Source: Acidobacteriota bacterium
GTDB taxonomy: Bacteria; Acidobacteriota; Terriglobia; Bryobacterales; Bryobacteraceae
Direction: 5' to 3'
Assembly: GCA_026394075.1 (NCBI GenBank)
Contig: JAPKYX010000039.1
Coordinates: forward strand, 1-39,373
DNA length: 39,373 nt
Of this stretch, positions 19,256 to 28,640 are shown in pieces. Both the position numbers and the translations under genes were made by a program. The notes under the pieces are model-generated. The model was not told the origin of the DNA, searched no databases, and worked only from the letters and a program-made list of their open reading frames with translations. Each line of letters begins with the position of its first letter. Position 1 is the first letter of the stretch.

Positions 19256-21043
19256 CTAGCGGACGCCGATTTTCCCAAAAACGACGCTGAGTTGGCGCTG
19301 ATCCTGGGCGGGGGTAAAGGTGCGGCTGGCGGTGATGACCAGCTCCACCGCGCCCTGGCCTCGGGCGGCGGCGGGCAGGGGATAGGTCAAGACGAACTGC
19401 TGGTTTGCTCCGGTAAGGCTCTGCGGGCCGGCGTCGATGCCATTGGCCGAGACGCTGAGTTGAATGGTTCCCAGGGCTTGTGGTGCATAGCCTTGCAGCT
19501 CAATCAGCCCGGCGGGGGCCACCTGTGCGTTCACCTGCACCGTGGCGCGCGCGCCCATCCAGCGCATGCCGTTTTCGGGCGCATACCAGCCACTGCCGAC
19601 CTGCTGGCTGAACTTGGGGTCCGCGACATCGACGAAGGCCGCCAGGGCGTCTCCCAACCGCTCGGCCTGGAGGCGGAAGGAGGCGGTGACGTTGCGCAGG
19701 CTGTCGCCGGTGGGTTGGTAGACGGCGACGCGTTCCTGTTCGAAGAGTTCCTTCACCTGAGCCGGCCCCAGCAGCCACTGGGAGATGCCGCCCCATTCGG
19801 GATGGGCGTCGATCTGCTTTTCGGCTCCGGGTGCCAGGTAGATTTCCTTCAACCCCAGCAGACGGAAGGGGTTGTCGAAGACGCCATCCCAGAAAAGTTC
19901 GTTGGAGATGCCGGTGAGCAGAATCACTCGGTCCGGGTGTTGCTGGCGGGCCGCTTCCACGCCCCGCACCAACTGCTGCACCGCCCGGGCCTTTTCTTTC
20001 TGCCAGTAGAACGCGCGCCGGGCGGGGATCCAGGAACCGGCCACCAGGCCCACGGCCACCAGCGCCATTACCGGCCGGGGCAGGCAGACGCAAAGCAGGC
20101 CGGCCAAAAAGCCCAGCGCCATCAGCGGCATCGCCAGATAGTAATGCAGTGTGTGGTCCCGCAACGGCAACACCGGCGCCAGCAGCGCCAGGAACCAAAT
20201 GGCACCGAACAGAGCCGGGCGATTGCGCAACCAGACGAGCGCCAATCCGGCGACGGCTGACAGAGGGAAGGCCCAAACGAGGTACGTCCACAATGTCGCG
20301 CCCAGGCTGCGTGGATCGAGGTGTAGAAAATAGGCCGGGTCCGCGGCCGCCTTGGGGATGACGGCGAAATGCAGCACCAGAAACCCGAGTGACGGCACCG
20401 TCAGCGCTGCCGCTTGCCGCCAACGGGACCGGTCATAGAGTGCCACCCAGGCCAGGGCCAGTGCCGGAAACACCACCATGGATTCCAGCGTTCCGAAGCC
20501 CAGCAGGAAAACCACCCAACAAGCCACCATCCGGCGGTCCAGCAACAGCCACAAGGCACCCAGTATGGCCGCGGCGCAGAAGATCTGGTTGCCAGAGCTC
20601 ATCCACCCCATTGCTGCTGAGAGGCCAACGGAGACGGTCCAGAACACTGCCGCCAGGACTCCGGCCACTTTGGACCCGGTCAATTTGCGGGTCACCAGCG
20701 CCAGCAGGACGCAACTGACGCACTGCGCGCCGACGATGACGACGCGGAAGGGCAGAGCCTCCAGGCCGAACAGCGATTCCAGGGTCAGAAAGAAGGCCCG
20801 TTCGCTCAAGAATCGGACGGTGCCCTGGGCCATGGGGGCAAACAGTGCGGTCCACAGGTCAGACGGCTGATGCACCGAGAGCCTAAGGCCCAGCCAGGCG
20901 AAGTCGTCCGCCCGGAACCAGGTGCCCAAGGTGCGCCAATAGAAACCGAGGCTGGCCAGGAAGGGCACGGCCCACCAATAGCGCTGCCAGAGGTGCAGGA
21001 GTTGTTCACGGAGAGGTCCGTGGCCGGACAAGCGAGATTCCAC
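19256..21043 (-). CDS. GT-C-like integral membrane protein with C-terminal beta-domain
   Basis: About 595 residues. Some ten hydrophobic helices (FLASLGFYWRTLGTWF, LFGLEALPFRVVIVGAQCVSCVLLALV, VVFLLGFGTLESMVVFPALALAWVALY and others) surround an early RADDFAWL that could hold the acidic residue used by GT-C glycosyltransferases. The last 130 residues form a soluble, beta-rich domain (GSGWYAPENGMRWMGARATVQVNA; IQLSVSANGI) that should lie in the periplasm. I infer a glycan- or lipid-linked sugar transferase, but no family is proven. The GTG at 21043 is the likely start: earlier codons would overlap the divergent methyltransferase and lack hydrophobic character. Its position 20 bp from that operon suggests shared regulation. 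Confidence 0.72.
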   Translation of the reverse strand: MESRLSGHGPLREQLLHLWQRYWWAVPFLASLGFYWRTLGTWFRADDFAWLGLRLSVHQPSDLWTALFAPMAQGTVRFLSERAFFLTLESLFGLEALPFRVVIVGAQCVSCVLLALVTRKLTGSKVAGVLAAVFWTVSVGLSAAMGWMSSGNQIFCAAAILGALWLLLDRRMVACWVVFLLGFGTLESMVVFPALALAWVALYDRSRWRQAAALTVPSLGFLVLHFAVIPKAAADPAYFLHLDPRSLGATLWTYLVWAFPLSAVAGLALVWLRNRPALFGAIWFLALLAPVLPLRDHTLHYYLAMPLMALGFLAGLLCVCLPRPVMALVAVGLVAGSWIPARRAFYWQKEKARAVQQLVRGVEAARQQHPDRVILLTGISNELFWDGVFDNPFRLLGLKEIYLAPGAEKQIDAHPEWGGISQWLLGPAQVKELFEQERVAVYQPTGDSLRNVTASFRLQAERLGDALAAFVDVADPKFSQQVGSGWYAPENGMRWMGARATVQVNAQVAPAGLIELQGYAPQALGTIQLSVSANGIDAGPQSLTGANQQFVLTYPLPAAARGQGAVELVITASRTFTPAQDQRQLSVVFGKIGVR

Positions 21044-21063: not shown

Positions 21064-21780
21064 TTGCAGGTTTCCACCACCAGCGAATACACCGTTGCCG
21101 ACCAGCAACGCATGTCGAAAGCCGTCCGCTACTTCGAGTGGCAGTCGCGTATTTCGGCCGAGGCACTGGGGCAGCGCGTGCTGGAAGTGGGTTGCGGGTT
21201 GGGCAACTTTACTCAGTCGCTGGTAGATCGTGAATTGGTGGTGGGTATCGACATTGATGCCGCCTGCATCGAACTGCACCACCAGCGTTTCAGTGACCGG
21301 CCGCACGTCCAATCCCGCGTGTTGGATGCGCTAGACCCGGAGTTCCTGGAACTGAAGCAGCATCGGCCGGATTCGATTGCCTGCCTGAACGTGCTGGAGC
21401 ACATCTCGGACGACTTGGCGACGCTGAAGCGTTTTGCCGACGTGCTGCCTACTGGCGGGCGGGTGGTCCTACTGGTGCCGGCCTTTAAGGCGCTTTACGG
21501 CCCGATCGATGCCAACCTGGGCCACTACCGGCGCTACACCAAAGCGTCGCTGCGGGCGACGGCGGAGCAGGCCGGGTTGCGGGCGCGCACGCTGAAGTTC
21601 ATGAACCTGGTGGGCTTTTTCGGCTGGTGGGTGAACGCCAAGGTGCTGAAGCGCGAACAGCAGAGCGAAGGCCAGATTGCGCTGTTTGACGGCGTGATTG
21701 TGCCGGTGATGTCGACGCTGGAAGGCTTGGTGGAGCCGCCGGTGGGCCAGTCGATTTTTGCGGTTCTCGAAAAAGTGTAA
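21064..21780 (+). CDS. Class I SAM-dependent methyltransferase
   Basis: A 238-residue methyltransferase. Motif I is clear (VLEVGCGLGNFTQSLVDRELVVGIDID, about residues 40-66), then ARVLDALDPEFLEL-like motif II and SIACLNVLEHISDDLATLKRFADVLPTGGRVVLLVPAFKALYGPIDANLGHYRRYT. This group of enzymes is common beside GT2 glycosyltransferases in lipid-sugar loci. The substrate is probably a sugar or polyprenyl lipid, but that is not shown. The start is a TTG at 21064 or the ATG at 21112. The longer form keeps a conserved RMSKAVRYFEWQ segment inside the protein and is preferred. It is the first gene of a five-gene operon; the next start is five bases past its stop. Confidence 0.85.
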   Translation: MQVSTTSEYTVADQQRMSKAVRYFEWQSRISAEALGQRVLEVGCGLGNFTQSLVDRELVVGIDIDAACIELHHQRFSDRPHVQSRVLDALDPEFLELKQHRPDSIACLNVLEHISDDLATLKRFADVLPTGGRVVLLVPAFKALYGPIDANLGHYRRYTKASLRATAEQAGLRARTLKFMNLVGFFGWWVNAKVLKREQQSEGQIALFDGVIVPVMSTLEGLVEPPVGQSIFAVLEKV

Positions 21781-21784
21781 GCCG

Positions 21785-22540
21785 ATGAAGGTCTCCATCA
21801 TCATTCCGGTGTACAACGAGATCAACGTGCTCGATCAGGTGATGGAGCGCGTCTTGCAGGCGCCGCTGCCGGAGGGGATGGAGCGCGAGATCATTGTCGT
21901 CGACGATGGCTCCACGGACGGCACGACGGAACTGTTGAAGCAGTATCACGACACGCCGCTGGTGGTCGTGCACCATTCGCAGGTGAACTTCGGCAAGGGC
22001 GCCGCCCTGCGGATCGGCATTGCCAACGCGACGGGCGACCTGATCCTGGTGCAGGATGGCGACCTGGAATACGATCCCAACGACTGGGTGCGGGTGCTGA
22101 CGCCGCTGGCTATCGGCGCGGCGTCGGTGGTCTATGGGTCGCGCTTCCAAGGCCGCCCGAAGGGCATGAAGTTCGCCAACTGGCTGGCGAACAAGATCCT
22201 TACGGGCACCGCCAACCTGCTTTACGGTGCCCAGATTACGGATGAAGCCACTGCCTACAAAGCGTTCCGGACTGATGTGCTGGCCAGCATGCGCCTGCGT
22301 TGCATCCGGTTTGAGTTCTGCCCGGAAGTGACGGCCAAGGTACGCCGTCTGGGGCATGTCATCCATGAAGTGCCGATCAGCTACAACGCGCGCGGCGTGC
22401 TGGAAGGCAAGAAGATCCGGTGGCAGGATGGCGTTGAAGCTCTTTGGACACTGCTGCGTTACCGCTGGGGCGCGATGGAGCGCCCGAATCCGGTGCGCCC
22501 GGCCACTGTCGCCAATGCCCGCGCGGCGCGGAGCGTCTAG
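21785..22540 (+). CDS. Glycosyltransferase family 2 (polyprenyl-phosphate sugar transferase-like)
   Basis: A 251-residue GT2 enzyme similar to dolichol/undecaprenyl-phosphate mannosyl- or glucosyltransferases. It has the N-terminal nucleotide-binding strand (MKVSIIIPVYNEINVL), DDGSTDGTTE, an NFGKGAALRIGIANATGDLILVQDGDLEYDP segment with the DxD-like metal site, and GSRFQGRPKGM, ending ISYNARGVLEGKKIRWQDG. It lacks C-terminal transmembrane helices, so it should sit at the inner membrane face. It would make the lipid-linked sugar donor that GT-C enzymes use outside, and two such membrane proteins follow in the operon. The ATG at 21785 is preferred over one nine codons upstream in the previous gene. 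Confidence 0.9.
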   Translation: MKVSIIIPVYNEINVLDQVMERVLQAPLPEGMEREIIVVDDGSTDGTTELLKQYHDTPLVVVHHSQVNFGKGAALRIGIANATGDLILVQDGDLEYDPNDWVRVLTPLAIGAASVVYGSRFQGRPKGMKFANWLANKILTGTANLLYGAQITDEATAYKAFRTDVLASMRLRCIRFEFCPEVTAKVRRLGHVIHEVPISYNARGVLEGKKIRWQDGVEALWTLLRYRWGAMERPNPVRPATVANARAARSV

Positions 22541-22546
22541 ACCGCC

Positions 22547-24346
22547 GTGTTTCCGGATTGGTGGCTGGACGGTTGGCTCCAGCTTCGAGACTCACTACCG
22601 CCTGAATCCCCCCTGCTGTTGATCCGCTGGCTATTGCAGGGTTTGACCCTGGCGTTGCTGGTTGCCTTGGCGGATCTGCTGGCGGGTGCGGCCGTGCTCC
22701 ACTGGGCGCGAGTGCGGTTGCCGGCACGGTTACGCGGTGCGGCCATGCTGGCCATCGGCATGGGGCTATCCGGGACGCTGATGCTGATCTATCCCCGTGG
22801 TTGGGTGGGGCTGCTGCCGGGGTTGCTGGGCCTTCCGTTGCTCCGCACGCGTGCCGGACGTTGGCACGTCTTTGGCTGGCTGAGCGCATTCCGTCCGCGG
22901 GGTTGGGTGGCCTGGGCGTTGGTGCCGGTGGTGCTGCTGTCGCTGCCGGACCTCTTTCTGCCGATCGTCGAGTACGACGCCACGTTGTACCACATGGTGG
23001 CGGCCCGCCAGTATCAGGATGCCGGGCGCGTGTCGTTTGATGCGGGCGTTCGCTTCAATTCTCATCCGCAACTGGGGGTGTTGCTCTATGCACGGCAGCA
23101 GATGCTGTCGGGCGAAGATTCGCTGACTAAGCTGGTGAACCTGGAATGGGTGGCGATGATCGTGCTGGCCGTGCTGCAAATGGCCCGGCGGGCGCGTGGC
23201 GACAACCGGACGCGCTCGGCCTTGGCTTGCTTGCTATTGGCCGGGTCACCTTTGTTCTGGCATCTCGCCAAGATTGAGTACGCCGATCTGGCGTTGACGG
23301 CGTGGTTGGCGGTGGCGGTGGCGTTGCTTGAATGGCGGGGTGTGCCGCCGTGGCTGGCGGGGCTCGCGCTGGGGTTTACTGCTGCTTCGAAGATGCAGGG
23401 GTTGCTGATGGCGGGCTTGGTGGGGTTGATCTACCTGCTGCTGCGGCGGAACTGGCGGGCGGGGCTGCAGGTGGCTACGGTGGCGGCGTTGGTCAACCTG
23501 GGCTGGTGGATCCGCTCCTCAATGGCGACGGGAAGCCCGGTTTATCCGTTCTTGAGTGCCGATGGCCGCACCGAGTCAGCCTACCTGTTTGAGGTGAGCG
23601 CCCGTTACGGCGTCGGGCATGACTGGGTGCATTTCCTCCGGCTGCCATGGGATCTGCTGACGCATTCGCCTTTCATCTTTACCGATGCCTTTGTCTTCGG
23701 ACCCGCTCTGCTGCTGGTGCCGCTGCTGGCCATCGCAGGCTCACCACGGTGGCTGCCGCTGCTGACGTCTGCGGTCTATCTTGTGTTTTGGTACACGACC
23801 GGCCAGGTGGGGCGTTATCTGGTGCCCGTGTTGCCGCTGCTGGCCATGGGGCTGGGTGGCGCTCCGCCCAAGCTGGCGGCGTGGGTGGCGCAAGGCTTGC
23901 TGGCGGCGTGGGCCGCCTTTGCCGGGCTCAGTACGTTGGCCACGGTGCGCTTTCACGCGCTGCCGCCGGTCACTTTTGGCCAGAAGACGGAGTACCTGCG
24001 GCAGACCTTGCCCTATGCCAGTGCGGTGATCGAGATCAACCGCGTGGCGCGGCCGTCGGACCTGACCTACCTCTGGTTCGCCGAAGATGCCCGGTACTAT
24101 GTGCGGACCCGCGCGGAAGGCGATTGGTTTGGCTCCCATAGTTTTGGTGACGCCACCTCACTTGACCGGCTGCGAGAGTGGGGTGTGCGGTTTATCCTGA
24201 TTGATCGCGACCGGGCCGCTTACAATGGCCGGATCTATGGCGAGCAGTTTGGCACGACCGCCCTGGTGAAGCGTTTCGGGCTGGTTCCCGCGGGGCTCAC
24301 GCTGATCTACGATGATGAACGATACTCGGTATTCCGTCTTGACTAA
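22547..24346 (+). CDS. GT-C-like integral membrane protein (putative glycosyltransferase)
   Basis: A 599-residue multi-pass protein. Hydrophobic helices fill most of it, and a short DATLYHMVAARQYQDAGRVSF loop after the third or fourth helix carries an acidic residue and His, as in GT-C transferases that take a lipid-linked sugar. SHPQLGVLLYARQQML and SKMQGLLMAGL are other landmarks; GGRYLVPVLPLLAMGLG-type helices lead to a soluble C-terminus (residues about 480-599). No named family is recognised with confidence. It starts with GTG six bases after the GT2 stop, so it is in one operon with it, and probably uses the lipid-sugar that the GT2 makes. Confidence 0.75.
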   Translation: MFPDWWLDGWLQLRDSLPPESPLLLIRWLLQGLTLALLVALADLLAGAAVLHWARVRLPARLRGAAMLAIGMGLSGTLMLIYPRGWVGLLPGLLGLPLLRTRAGRWHVFGWLSAFRPRGWVAWALVPVVLLSLPDLFLPIVEYDATLYHMVAARQYQDAGRVSFDAGVRFNSHPQLGVLLYARQQMLSGEDSLTKLVNLEWVAMIVLAVLQMARRARGDNRTRSALACLLLAGSPLFWHLAKIEYADLALTAWLAVAVALLEWRGVPPWLAGLALGFTAASKMQGLLMAGLVGLIYLLLRRNWRAGLQVATVAALVNLGWWIRSSMATGSPVYPFLSADGRTESAYLFEVSARYGVGHDWVHFLRLPWDLLTHSPFIFTDAFVFGPALLLVPLLAIAGSPRWLPLLTSAVYLVFWYTTGQVGRYLVPVLPLLAMGLGGAPPKLAAWVAQGLLAAWAAFAGLSTLATVRFHALPPVTFGQKTEYLRQTLPYASAVIEINRVARPSDLTYLWFAEDARYYVRTRAEGDWFGSHSFGDATSLDRLREWGVRFILIDRDRAAYNGRIYGEQFGTTALVKRFGLVPAGLTLIYDDERYSVFRLD

Positions 24347-25010
24347 TTCACTACTGACTAGATCGCTACTGGCATGGATGGCGCTGAGCCTGGCCGCCTG
24401 CGTGGGTTCGCGCGAGCGTTCCCGGTTTCCGGCGGAGCCGCATCTGGACCAAGTAGTGCCGCCTCGGGTGGGGGCCGGCAAGTCGTTCCAGGTGCAGCCG
24501 GATGGGCGGTCCGCGTTGATTGTGCGGGGCACCAACTTGTCGCCCAAGTCACGCATCCGGCTGAATGGTCATGTGCTGGACACCAGCGGCGGCGACGGCA
24601 CGCAATTGAGCGCGTATGTTCCTGCGGAGTTGATCAAGGAGCCGGGCCAGTTTCCCGTTTCGGTCGAGACGCCGGAAGGACAGCTCTCCAATAGTCTGCC
24701 GTTCTGGGTGCTCTCAAACAGCGGCCCGGCGCCGGAGATCGGCAAGCTCTACCCGGCCGAATACACCGCCGGGCAAGCGTTCAACAAGCAGCCCAACGGT
24801 GCCTCCGCCTTGGGGATCACTGGGCAGAACTTTCTGCCGGAACCAGTGGTGGAGATTAACGGCGAACCGACGGTGACGGCCTTTGGCGGCTCCGAGCAGT
24901 TGAGCGCGCTGGTGCCGGACAAGTTCATTCAGAAGCCCGGCCGGCTGAAGATCACGGTTCGTAACCGTGACGGCAAGGTGTCGGCACCGGTGGAGTTGAT
25001 CCTGAAGTGA
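24312..25010 (+). CDS. Lipoprotein with two TIG/IPT-like domains
   Basis: A 232-residue exported protein. The N-terminus has a hydrophobic core ending LSLAAC, a lipobox, so it should be lipid-anchored. Two copies of one beta-sandwich follow: about residues 45-140 and 145-232. They share a P-x-x-x-x-AG-x-x-F-x-x-QP(D/N)G-x-SAL start, a G-x-N, an N-G, a GG-x-x-QLSA-x-VP turn, and a PG stretch. This layout is that of IPT/TIG immunoglobulin-like folds. The start overlaps the preceding gene by 35 bp and its stop overlaps the next start by four (GTGA). It sits between two membrane glycosyltransferase-like genes, so it may be the acceptor or a chaperone of the glycosylation machinery. Binding function is inferred only. 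Confidence 0.8.
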   Translation: MMNDTRYSVLTNSLLTRSLLAWMALSLAACVGSRERSRFPAEPHLDQVVPPRVGAGKSFQVQPDGRSALIVRGTNLSPKSRIRLNGHVLDTSGGDGTQLSAYVPAELIKEPGQFPVSVETPEGQLSNSLPFWVLSNSGPAPEIGKLYPAEYTAGQAFNKQPNGASALGITGQNFLPEPVVEINGEPTVTAFGGSEQLSALVPDKFIQKPGRLKITVRNRDGKVSAPVELILK

Positions 25011-26917
25011 GAGATTATCGCCGCGGGGAATGGCTGTTTCTGCTGGCGGCCTGCCTGCTGACTGCAGCGGCTTGCTTTCCGTGGATGCCGAACCTCGGCA
25101 TGGAGTACGACGAGGCCCACTTCCTGGAGTCCGCCACGCGCATCGCCGCGACGCATCCGGAACGGCTGAAGGTGCCGGACGGCGTCTACCTGGCGAACCG
25201 CCCGTTCCCGTTCATGACGATGGTCTACGTGGGGGCGCTGGATGGTTGGTTGATGGCGCCGGTGCTGGCGATCTTCGGGTTCTCGCCCGTGGTGCCCCGC
25301 GTGGCCTACTGGTTGGCGGGATGTCTTGTCCTCTGGCTCGCTTACGGGCTGGCGCGGCGGCTGGGCGGCATGTGGGCGGGCGTGGTGGCCGTCAGCTTCC
25401 TGGTGGTGGACCTGGAATGGCTGTTGCATGTGCCCACCCACTTCGGCCCCTTTTTCCTACAGATCATCGCCGCCACAGTGGCTTACTGGCGTCTGGACCG
25501 GTGGCTGGTTGACGGCCGGCCGCGCGACTTCTACATCGCCTGTTTCGTCGCTGGGCTGGCATTCCAGGAGAAGCTGACCTTTGTGTGGGTGCTGGCGGTG
25601 CTGGTGCTGGCGCTGCTCGTGTTCCGGGGCCGCGAGGTGCTGCGGACTTTGCGGCCGCTCCAGTTCGGCATTGGGTTCGCGCTGTTCCTGCTGGGTGCGG
25701 CTCCGGTGCTGTGGTACGTCATTGCCCACCGCGACATCGTGTTCGGCTATGGCGGGCAAAGCACGGCGCTTCCGACGGCGGAGATTGTCGAGAAGCGGCT
25801 TTACCAGTGGCAGGATCTGCTGAATGGGCAGCGCTTCATGATCCAGCAATTGGGCGACCCGATCGGCGTGGTGCGTTATTCCGCTCTGCCGTGGATCTTT
25901 TGGGGCAGCCTGGTGGCTTGCGCGGCGTTGCGTGTGTGGGCGGCGGCTCCGTTGCTGTTCTTCACGGTGGGCTTGGTGGCTTTGAATACGCTGTTTCCCG
26001 AAGGCGGCCGGGCGCATCACTTGTTGCTGGTGTACCCGTTGATGCAGTGCGGCATCGGCGTGGTGGCGGCGCGGTCTCGGTGGCTGCTGATTCCGGTCTT
26101 GGTTCTACTGGGCCTGACCGGCCTTTCAACCGCCCAAAATCTAGCTTGGTATACGCAGGAAGTGGCCCGCACCGGCGGCCGCGGACATTGGTCCAGCGCC
26201 ATCAATGATGTGGCGGACTGGATCAAGACGCAACCGGACAAGCACTTTGCCGCGGCCAGTTGGGGCTTCTACCGGCAGTTGTACTTTCTCACCGCGGGCC
26301 GCATTTCTCTGCACGATCGCTACTTTGACCTGATGCCGGACCCACTGCCGCCGGACAACCTGGAGCAGATCACTTCGCTCGTCCAGCGGCAGGACACCAT
26401 CTGGCTGACTTCCAGCTTTCTGCCGCAGTATGTGACCAACCAGCGGAAGCTCTTCGGCGTCGCCGCCGGGTTGGGTCTCACCCCACGCCACCTGAAAACC
26501 TTCTACCGGAAGACGGGTGAGCCGATCTATGAGGCGTACGCGTTTCTGCCGGAGCAGACCGCCCCCTGGCGTCCGTTGACGGTGTCGGCCAACGGTGCGC
26601 GGAGAGCTGAGTTCCTGGTTCCGCCGGGGACGCGGGAAGTCGCTTTCCATGCGTCTGGCCGCGCTTGGCATCACGCCAACGCCGTTACCGTGGAACTGCT
26701 GGATGCCAGCGGCGCCCGCCTGCGCGCGTGGTGGCGGACGACGGAAGCATACCCGATTACACCCCTGGAAGAACGGATGAGCTTCGGCAAGGACCGCTAT
26801 CCCGATTACTTTGTCCCCTTGCCCGGGGCCCGCGACGGCGAAGTCGCGCAAGTGCGCTTCAACGCCGAGACGGAAAAACCGGTTGACCTCCAGATCAACC
26901 AGGTCCGGGTGCGATAG
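25007..26917 (+). CDS. GT39/ArnT-like membrane glycosyltransferase
   Basis: A 636-residue membrane protein. It has the PMT/ArnT (GT-C) look: an early NLGMEYDEAHFLES loop after the first helix with the acidic DE pair typical of the active site, then about ten helices (VLAIFGFSPVVPRVAYWLAGCLVLWLAYGLARRLGG and others), a GGRAHHLLLVYPL segment, and a beta-rich periplasmic tail (residues about 500-636). Such enzymes move sugar from polyprenyl phosphate to lipid A or to Ser/Thr of proteins. It starts with GTG overlapping the lipoprotein stop by four bases. It is the last gene of the operon. The acceptor is not known, but the duplicated-TIG lipoprotein next to it is an attractive candidate. Confidence 0.83.
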   Translation: MRDYRRGEWLFLLAACLLTAAACFPWMPNLGMEYDEAHFLESATRIAATHPERLKVPDGVYLANRPFPFMTMVYVGALDGWLMAPVLAIFGFSPVVPRVAYWLAGCLVLWLAYGLARRLGGMWAGVVAVSFLVVDLEWLLHVPTHFGPFFLQIIAATVAYWRLDRWLVDGRPRDFYIACFVAGLAFQEKLTFVWVLAVLVLALLVFRGREVLRTLRPLQFGIGFALFLLGAAPVLWYVIAHRDIVFGYGGQSTALPTAEIVEKRLYQWQDLLNGQRFMIQQLGDPIGVVRYSALPWIFWGSLVACAALRVWAAAPLLFFTVGLVALNTLFPEGGRAHHLLLVYPLMQCGIGVVAARSRWLLIPVLVLLGLTGLSTAQNLAWYTQEVARTGGRGHWSSAINDVADWIKTQPDKHFAAASWGFYRQLYFLTAGRISLHDRYFDLMPDPLPPDNLEQITSLVQRQDTIWLTSSFLPQYVTNQRKLFGVAAGLGLTPRHLKTFYRKTGEPIYEAYAFLPEQTAPWRPLTVSANGARRAEFLVPPGTREVAFHASGRAWHHANAVTVELLDASGARLRAWWRTTEAYPITPLEERMSFGKDRYPDYFVPLPGARDGEVAQVRFNAETEKPVDLQINQVRVR

Positions 26918-26969: not shown

Positions 26970-28640
26970 CTAGTTATCGCCCGGCTTCGACTCTGAGGCC
27001 GGCGCTTTGTGTGCGGCCCGGTTGCGTACGCTATAGCCGGTCAACCAGGCGGGGTCCATCGGGTAGACTTCCGGGTCGAACAGCACGAAGTAGAAGTGCC
27101 AGACCAGGATCGAGAGCGTGGCCAGGACCGCTTCATAGAAGTGCACCGCGCTGAACGCATCCAGCACTGGCTTGGGCCAGTACTGCAACGTGAATTTGTT
27201 TGCCCACAGCGCAATGCCGGTTGCCGCCATCAGCACGGCACCCCACACGACCGCCCAGTATTCGGCCTTCTCGATGTAGCCGTGAGACGCCACCTGCGGC
27301 CTCCGCCGGATGAGGCCCAGGTTCCAAAGGAACATGCTGAAGGCCTCACGGACATCACTCCCGTGGGGAATCAATTCCATCCAGTGCTCCCGCAAGCGGC
27401 GGCTTACCACCAGCGACACAACATGTGACACCGAAACCACGATGAACACCACGGCAGCGACTCGGTGAGCAATGCCGCGAATCGAGAGGGACGCTTCCCA
27501 GGCCACCCAGGGTTTCGCCCACCAAGCATCGGGATAGCGAAGGGCAAACCCGCTCAGCGCCAAAACCACAAACGACACCACCAGAGCGGCGTGTTGTACC
27601 CGCTCCGCGCCGTGCATGCGGAACTGGCGGGCGTTAGACCGCAGTTGGAAGTCCGGCACAGCCACCTTCGCCAATCGCAACGCGACCAGCTTGCGGATAA
27701 AGTCGCCCCCGTTGTGAAGAAGCATCAGGCCGATAATCAATGGGATGGCCACGCCGTAGATCAGCCGGATCCACTCCACCCCCGCCGGTTCCTTCTGCCC
27801 CTCCGTCCAATGAACCGTGCCCAAGGCAAACCGCGTCCCGGCACCTTCGTGGCACCGGCCGCAGGTGGCGGCCAGATTCTGGGGATGCACCATCGACAAG
27901 GGATCCTTGGATTCTCGAATCTCGTGAAAGCCATGGCAACTGGAGCAGTTGGCCACCGTCTGGGAGCCAGCCTTCAGCGCGAGGCCGTGAAAGGACTGGT
28001 CAAAGCTGACAATGCGGTCGGGCGGAATCCCGAACCGGCTGGCCAACCGCAGGTCAGCGTGGCAACTCGCGCAAGTCTCGCGAATCTGGCTGGCTTTTGA
28101 GAAGGTGTTCTTGCTCTGCGGGGGCAGCGCGACATGGACTCCGTGGCAGTTGCTGCAACCGGGTGCGTCGGGAATGCCTTTGGCGATCGCCTGGCCGTGA
28201 ACGCTCTTCTGGAACTGCTCCAGCTGTTCCGAATGACACATACCGCAGGTCTCGATCGATTGCTTTCGTGCGTCAAACGAGGCGGTCCGTGTCACCTCAT
28301 GGGTGACCCCGTGGCAGACCGCGCATTCGGGTACACCCTGTTCACCCCGCTGCGTGGCTTGCCCATGCACGGTCCGCGGAAACTCACTCACTTGTTTGGC
28401 GTGACAGGTCTTACACTCTGCCGGTGCCGCCTGGGCGGGGTGGGGGAACTCTTCATGCCGGGCATGGCAAGATGCGCAAGCCACCGGTCCGTGGGCACCG
28501 GCTTCCACCTTGGCCGCCACTGGCTGATGGCAAGCCTCGCAGAGCGAGTTATCAGGCTTGGCCTGCGAGAACGTGCACCCAGCCGCCAAGATAAAGATAG
28601 TCCAACACCGATTGAGTAAGCGCATGGTGGAGCCGAACAT
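26970..28640 (-). CDS. Nonaheme cytochrome c fused to a b-type cytochrome membrane domain
   Basis: A 556-residue protein. A signal-like N-terminus (LLNRCWTIFILAAGCTFSQA) is followed by nine CxxCH haem sites, starting at residues 34, 55, 76, 106, 132, 162, 190, 232 and 260, with a further His in many VHGQA/FHGLA segments as axial ligands. From about residue 285 there are five transmembrane helices with paired His (LIYGVAIPLIIGLMLLHNGG; RIAHRVAAVVFIVVSVSHVVSLVV; FYEAVLATLSILVWHFYFVLF), resembling a cytochrome b561/DUF4405-type quinol module. It probably moves electrons between the quinone pool and periplasmic carriers. The exact partner is unknown. It may start at 28640 or at an ATG five codons later. 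The gene stands alone, with convergent ends on its 3' side. Confidence 0.9.
   Translation of the reverse strand: MFGSTMRLLNRCWTIFILAAGCTFSQAKPDNSLCEACHQPVAAKVEAGAHGPVACASCHARHEEFPHPAQAAPAECKTCHAKQVSEFPRTVHGQATQRGEQGVPECAVCHGVTHEVTRTASFDARKQSIETCGMCHSEQLEQFQKSVHGQAIAKGIPDAPGCSNCHGVHVALPPQSKNTFSKASQIRETCASCHADLRLASRFGIPPDRIVSFDQSFHGLALKAGSQTVANCSSCHGFHEIRESKDPLSMVHPQNLAATCGRCHEGAGTRFALGTVHWTEGQKEPAGVEWIRLIYGVAIPLIIGLMLLHNGGDFIRKLVALRLAKVAVPDFQLRSNARQFRMHGAERVQHAALVVSFVVLALSGFALRYPDAWWAKPWVAWEASLSIRGIAHRVAAVVFIVVSVSHVVSLVVSRRLREHWMELIPHGSDVREAFSMFLWNLGLIRRRPQVASHGYIEKAEYWAVVWGAVLMAATGIALWANKFTLQYWPKPVLDAFSAVHFYEAVLATLSILVWHFYFVLFDPEVYPMDPAWLTGYSVRNRAAHKAPASESKPGDN

Follow-up and report, generated by a model that had tools for sequence, protein, structure and literature searches.

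Linking the TIG subtype of an operon-encoded lipoprotein in Bryobacteraceae to glycan-making enzymes

The window analyzed here, 39,373 nucleotides that form a single entire contig (JAPKYX010000039.1) of a draft Bryobacteraceae genome (5.77 Mb, 302 contigs, 96.9% complete), encodes a lipoprotein with two TIG domains inside a glycosylation operon. Our main result is a link between the TIG subtype of that lipoprotein and enzymes that make glycans, as both carry a surface-loop motif, FNxQPxGxSA, that was absent from the ordinary multi-TIG proteins we counted. The operon itself is real and conserved and, as a glycosylation operon, belongs to a general kind already known; what is new is the kind of accessory part. 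We propose, with about as much belief as doubt, that the operon encodes a pathway for extracytoplasmic glycosylation, with the lipoprotein serving as a detached accessory subunit of the upstream GT-C glycosyltransferase and holding the acceptor glycan at the active site. The features concerned are as follows.

19256-21043, minus strand: divergent GT-C-like membrane protein, 595 aa from a GTG at 21043 (family match by hhalign)
21064-21780, plus strand: class I S-adenosylmethionine-dependent methyltransferase, 238 aa, TTG start (Pfam Methyltransf_23, E 5.5e-17)
21785-22540, plus strand: GT2 protein resembling polyprenyl-phosphate-sugar synthases, ATG start (Pfam Glycos_transf_2, E 8.6e-32)
22547-24346, plus strand: GT-C membrane glycosyltransferase (GTC1), the constant partner of the lipoprotein, GTG start
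24312-25010, plus strand: two-TIG lipoprotein, 232 aa, ATG start, lipid attachment at Cys30 (codon 24399-24401)
24441-24719, plus strand: TIG module copy 1, residues 44-136
24486-24515, plus strand: loop motif of copy 1, FQVQPDGRSA, residues 59-68
24729-25007, plus strand: TIG module copy 2, residues 140-232
24780-24809, plus strand: loop motif of copy 2, FNKQPNGASA, residues 157-166
25007-26917, plus strand: PMT_2/GT39-like GT-C protein with a C-terminal soluble part, 636 aa, GTG start, the variable member (Pfam PMT_2, E 1.2e-11)

The first-pass annotation had placed a lipoprotein with a duplicated TIG domain between two membrane-protein genes, and repeat alignment, family profiles and structure prediction all bear this out. 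The two copies share 30 of 91 aligned residues (33%), and their alignment score lies 21 standard deviations above that of shuffled sequences. Two stretches are matched both by Pfam TIG (PF01833; 40.6 bits against a gathering cutoff of 20.9) and by NCBIfam NF058597 (102.3 bits against a cutoff of 30). An AlphaFold2 model (pLDDT, the predicted confidence score, of 88) contains two immunoglobulin (Ig)-like domains with the beta-sandwich fold that defines IPT/TIG domains, and the lipobox reads LAAC, ending in Cys30. The conserved part of each loop is modeled with a pLDDT of >90, FxxQPxG of copy 1 lying between strands 52-54 and 67-74 and FNxQPxG of copy 2 between strands 142-147 and 165-172. We note that lipoproteins from close relatives of the window have a longer signal peptide, owing to in-frame tandem repeats of a TKDLV-like unit (L032:8427-9155, minus strand, and P0003).

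The motif separates the module subtype from other TIG repeats. It was counted with the expression F[NQS]xQ[PSLRA]x[GE]x[SAN][AGS], composed after the alignments had been viewed, and repeats with an E value of 1e-3 or above or covering at most 60 model positions were left out. By this count, the motif was found in 81 of 92 enzyme-fused repeats (65 fusions, including the unassigned proteins P0012 and P0034), in 34 of 42 repeats from 21 lipoproteins, in both repeats of a lipoprotein from a secretion locus, and in none of 100 repeats from 17 ordinary multi-TIG proteins. The latter had at least three repeats each and were listed once the repeat scan was complete; several loci whose open reading frame was in the wrong register yielded no repeat and lie outside the 17. 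On this count, generic TIG proteins were rejected as the source of the signal. Exceptions among the lipoproteins were that of G390, kept apart from the counts, with the motif in 0 of 2 repeats, and three orthologues (P0094, P0097, and P0098) plus a fragment (P0100), in which even a looser expression found none. The motif is thus a strong yet imperfect mark of the enzyme and lipoprotein subtype. Moreover, a single split in the repeat tree (support 0.705) parts the 100 multi-TIG repeats from the 134 repeats of enzymes and lipoproteins. Judged by sequence, lipoprotein and enzyme-fused modules likely constitute one shared subtype. Among open-licence papers, we found no link of the TIG or choice-of-anchor repeat, or of the motif, to glycosyltransferases.

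Enzymes bearing the module were reached by more than one route. A search of the phylum with the lipoprotein alignment matched 9 of 396 genomes at E ≤ 1e-20, and one of these, G251, encodes a 716-aa multi-pass protein that ends in two modules of the lipoprotein's type. When the G251 modules were searched against 5.8 billion proteins (E ≤ 1e-8, lengths of 394 to 1253 residues), 72 proteins were recovered: 33 multi-pass proteins with 4 to 13 predicted helices, a share that is partly circular given the GT-C-like seed, 27 GT4 or GT2 proteins by Pfam with 0 to 2 predicted helices, 10 multi-TIG proteins, and the 2 unassigned. Three of the 27 include asparagine synthase and two a methyltransferase, and some of the module-bearing enzymes are annotated "hypothetical protein." Whether an enzyme has glycosyltransferase domains or a multi-pass GT-C-like body, the motif-bearing modules sit at its C terminus. 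An alignment of 36 multi-pass fusions (32 of the 33 plus G251, L058, L059, and L060) included 11 matches to PMT_2 (E ≤ 0.01) and 1 to a sulfatase, and 27 fell in one BLAST cluster; the GT-C label of the remainder is based on helix count and motif alone.

A less biased route, the outcome of which agrees with this, was to search 84,980 species with a pair of peptide patterns drawn from the lipoprotein alignment; it gave 72 matches, 11 of them confirmed relatives. Five of the 11 lie outside Bryobacteraceae: three multi-pass proteins with a C-terminal module, none of which exceeded any Pfam cutoff, one multi-TIG protein, and one LtaS-type protein, a sulfatase-fold membrane protein with two modules. 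One of these multi-pass proteins is from Bosea lathyri (DSM 26656), where its gene is followed by GT2 and asparagine synthase genes and, 6 kb downstream, by a GtrA gene. Small relatives were sought with a profile, and among the best 7999 candidates it returned 34 proteins, 29 of which were orthologues or fragments of the lipoprotein (E ≤ 1e-49); the other five were single-module proteins P0102 to P0105 and a GT2 fusion, P0106.

The architectures found along the way are varied. P0025, P0026, and P0032 combine asparagine synthase with GT2 or GT4 domains and have one module behind each catalytic part. In P0067 and P0079, a single chain has a pair of GT2 domains, a methyltransferase domain, and, at its C terminus, a module, and so holds three kinds of part found in the window's operon; their methyltransferases gave no BLAST match to that of the window and are not close relatives of it. 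A gammaproteobacterial metagenome-assembled genome (MAG) and a genome from the same phylum as the window both encode LtaS-type membrane proteins with two C-terminal modules (L060:7754-10282 and L147:3280-5850). Finally, P0102 to P0105 are 121 to 157 aa long, with a lipoprotein-like N terminus and one FNVQPDG module.

In the window, the lipoprotein is conserved together with its neighbors. The order-level survey covered 200 genomes, of which 80 had some lipoprotein match at E ≤ 1e-3 and 17 a strong one at E < 1e-30, 15 of these at E < 1e-40. Strong orthologues of GTC1 (E < 1e-40) occurred in the same 15 genomes, and the 10 remaining GTC1 matches in the order were weak, none being better than E 8e-19. 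The GT-C gene lay directly upstream of the lipoprotein gene at every one of the 15 loci; it was truncated at a contig end in G050 and matched in two frames in G139. GT2 was upstream of the GT-C gene at 14 of 14 testable loci, and the methyltransferase gene was upstream of GT2 at 13 of 14, one locus being cut by a contig end and G122 having none detected. Of the 14 loci testable for it, 10 had the PMT gene after the lipoprotein gene, none being detected at G020, G098, G069, or G122, and the divergent GT-C gene was adjacent at 6 loci, the window among them. The first-pass annotation had called for a neighborhood survey, with solitary lipoproteins in most genomes counting against the idea; 15 of 17 strong homologues had a GT-C neighbor. 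The genomes with the pair comprise 5 genera, with records named Bryobacteraceae, Bryobacter, and other acidobacterial MAGs. Coupling of lipoprotein and GT-C looks clade specific, and at 18 loci of distant GT-C homologues (17 of 21 phylum matches outside the window's own and 1 match from the order survey, among 20 loci fetched altogether) no lipoprotein homologue was found among open reading frames of at least 90 aa, several of the contigs being <6.2 kb.

Frames of 878 and 895 residues in G122 and G098 had suggested a fusion of lipoprotein and PMT. The candidate was rejected, as the loci have separate lipoprotein open reading frames of 224 and 221 residues, and no PMT was detected downstream of either. 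Related two-TIG lipoproteins at L046:1132-1833 (minus strand) and L045:9846-10538 (plus strand) constitute a second setting for the same type of lipoprotein.

The enzymes of the locus resemble parts of lipid-linked glycosylation pathways. The best solved-structure match of GT2 was DPM synthase (5mlz, E 9.1e-18 over residues 1 to 209), followed by ArnC-type proteins, and a hydropathy scan predicted no transmembrane helix. GTC1 has a GT-C fold with a C-terminal soluble domain, similar to ArnT, and its Asp144 is invariant in 13 of 13 sequences; by family resemblance, this residue would sit in the first outer loop and act in catalysis. No named Pfam GT-C family claimed GTC1, the GT87 score of 16.9 bits being under the cutoff of 25. 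The divergent GT-C protein, as a six-sequence alignment, matched the 36 multi-pass fusions by hhalign (probability 98.9, E 3.6e-17, 374 columns), and by that profile comparison it and most multi-pass fusions belong to one family; pairwise BLAST gave a strong match only to P0035. The PMT-type protein is related to the TIG-fused proteins P0057 and P0070 (24 to 25% identity over about 500 aa). Thus, two of the three GT-C types at the locus have distant relatives with a covalent module. GTC1 was also considered as a member of the fused family, and the comparison (hhalign probability 12.4) did not support it.

How the operon might work is suggested by these families. GT2 would load a sugar, perhaps methylated by the methyltransferase, onto polyprenyl phosphate at the inner face of the membrane, some flippase would turn the lipid-linked sugar over, and GTC1, given its ArnT-like fold, would transfer the sugar on the outside. 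The TIG module may bind the glycan, and the variable PMT-type enzyme and the divergent GT-C protein may add further sugars. The interpretation in the first-pass annotation is thus partly supported. It had GT2 make a lipid-linked sugar, in line with the resemblance to DPM-type synthases, and had the GT-C proteins move that sugar outward, which is unsupported, as they look like transferases.

Known systems provide partial parallels. GT136 of Citrobacter youngae is a GT-C protein with a C-terminal Ig-like carbohydrate-binding module (CBM) that binds the acceptor O antigen, and Gtr/GT136 three-component glycosylation pairs a polyprenyl-phosphate-sugar synthase with a GT-C transferase much as the operon does (PMC11127046). 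In the operon, unlike in GT136, the Ig-like part is not joined to the enzyme but is encoded on its own, as a lipoprotein with two TIG-family copies. Moreover, and unlike in Gtr, the operon has an additional methyltransferase and no flippase gene that we could recognize, and GtrA (PF04138) was not found in the window's genome, at its 96.9% completeness, by a search that found it in 8 of 14 control genomes. The choice-of-anchor Z repeat, NF058597, is matched by the lipoprotein and by many fusions (32/36 and 17/29 members at E ≤ 0.001), but its strongest matches here are multi-repeat proteins without the FNxQPxG motif (E values down to 6e-253), and its name carries no link to glycosyltransferases. 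A different kind of comparison is offered by LpqW, the fold of which, to our knowledge, is not TIG. LpqW accompanies the mannosyltransferases PimE and MptB in mycobacteria and corynebacteria, and MptB was less active when LpqW was absent, so that the dependence of an outer-face mannosyltransferase on a lipoprotein has a precedent (PMC7261415).

The Pgf system of Streptococcus mutans raises the alternative that the lipoprotein is a dedicated acceptor glycosylated by the operon, as Pgf modifies Cnm, the adhesin encoded by a neighboring gene. The gene order there is cnm-pgfS-pgfM1-pgfE-pgfM2, so that a GT2 and two multi-pass PMT-type proteins beside a surface-protein gene are common to both loci (PMC5856776). 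The window's GT2 also resembles PgfS (E 3e-17), but at 62.8 bits against a cutoff of 500 it falls outside the PgfS equivalog, and unlike Pgf the operon has no epimerase. Moreover, and unlike the Pgf adhesin, the lipoprotein is built of modules of a type associated with enzymes. Modules fused to enzymes, cytosolic-type ones included, suggest a machine part rather than cargo, and the mature lipoprotein has no visible Ser/Thr-rich stretch. We consider it improbable that the lipoprotein is the acceptor, one of two roles that the first-pass annotation had offered for it, and prefer an accessory role.

The other role offered, that of a scaffold, is a genuine rival. In proteins of known structure, TIG domains often mediate protein interactions, and the solved-structure matches of the module here were Met, plexin, NFAT, and RBPJ. 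The lipoprotein might therefore dock proteins, with its modules binding the GT-C or other envelope proteins and holding the machine together without touching a glycan. Strict pairing with one GT-C fits docking, as does a relative near type II secretion genes. CBMs usually have an aromatic platform, and the conserved element here is instead a loop with few aromatic residues. The carriers of the module, however, which range from cytosolic-type GT4 and GT2 enzymes to multi-pass enzymes, have no obvious protein partner in common and yet have a glycan in common. The window's genome also offers little support for docking of module on module. It had five module matches, and the two that were checked, also the strongest, were the lipoprotein and a multi-TIG protein (E 5e-10) with no motif in its repeats. 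We regard the scaffold as unlikely, if still worth taking seriously.

Glycan binding is our leading reading of the module, by analogy with the Ig-like CBM of GT136. Multi-pass enzymes and cytosolic-type GT4 and GT2 enzymes both carry the module, and a glycan, the feature they share, would explain this more easily than a common protein partner. More tentatively, we think it possible that a portable glycan-holding TIG module with a rigid FNxQPxGxSA loop serves surface-glycan machines on both membrane faces, carried by cytosolic GT4 and GT2 enzymes, GT-C-type proteins, and LtaS-type transferases, and that the Bryobacteraceae version is a separate lipoprotein with two copies, acting in trans for a single GT-C.

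Several observations weigh against an accessory, glycan-holding lipoprotein. The CBM of GT136 proved nonessential (PMC11127046). GTC1, the partner itself, was never seen fused to the module. The 15 genomes with the pair fall in 5 related genera, so co-occurrence amounts to fewer than 15 independent events, and 2 of the 17 strong lipoprotein homologues (G045 and G054) are in another setting: the G054 homologue, which was checked with Pfam, lies near T2SSE and T2SSF genes rather than glycosyltransferases. Both repeats of the G045 copy bear the motif. Because the search that gave 72 proteins began with a GT-C-like fusion, that set alone cannot show how often the module is enzyme linked. A single-module profile, itself partly biased with 17 of its 21 rows from fusions, reached E ≤ 1e-12 in at least 5 of the 396 phylum genomes when up to the best 13 candidates per listed genome were scored; these were the window's genome, G251, G571 (an LtaS-type fusion), and G390 and G476 (lipoproteins, that of G476 having a single TIG), and the neighbor of the G390 lipoprotein had no Pfam match above cutoff. 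In the repeat tree, the lipoprotein repeats do not branch from within the enzyme repeats, and their nearest neighbors by branch length are multi-TIG or secretion-locus repeats; the tree offers no support for the lipoprotein having descended from an enzyme fusion. Finally, L056, a multi-TIG protein from a BRC1 MAG, set apart from the 17, has no glycosyltransferase part and carries the motif in 2 of 3 repeats.

The tree and L056 would also suit an ordinary envelope cluster in which a generic TIG surface lipoprotein is linked by position and has no role in glycosylation, as would the abundance of broader NF058597 repeats in large proteins of the same order. That explanation must, however, contend with complete co-occurrence with one GT-C in the sample, with the absence of the motif from all 100 repeats of the multi-TIG proteins, and with the repeated occurrence, in several phyla, of glycan enzymes fused to modules that bear the motif. 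We consider linkage by position alone very improbable.

The gene layout is compact. The methyltransferase, GT2, GT-C, lipoprotein, and PMT-type GT-C genes are codirectional, separated by gaps of 4 and 6 bp and then joined by overlaps of 35 and 4 bp, as the first-pass annotation had it. Only the 3 genomes of the window's genus have the 35-bp overlap of GT-C and lipoprotein genes; of the remaining 12 orthologous loci, 11 have the chosen lipoprotein start 5 to 7 bp past the GT-C stop, and 1 has a 7-bp overlap. An alternative TTG start at 24339 in the window would reduce the overlap to 8 bp and retain the signal peptide. The divergent GT-C gene, outside the interval first annotated, starts 20 bp from the methyltransferase gene (21043 and 21064), and with such spacing the promoters of both are probably within coding sequence. 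Convergent with the operon is a gene at 26970-28640 (minus strand) that joins a cytochrome c7-type multiheme part to a b561-type membrane domain.

The function of the module should be directly testable in Bosea lathyri DSM 26656, where a fused version has GT2 and GtrA genes downstream. If our proposal is true, an acceptor-binding domain would act in trans from a lipid anchor. Ultimately, a repeat hitherto named only as a surface-protein repeat would become a marker of glycan-making enzymes in several phyla.

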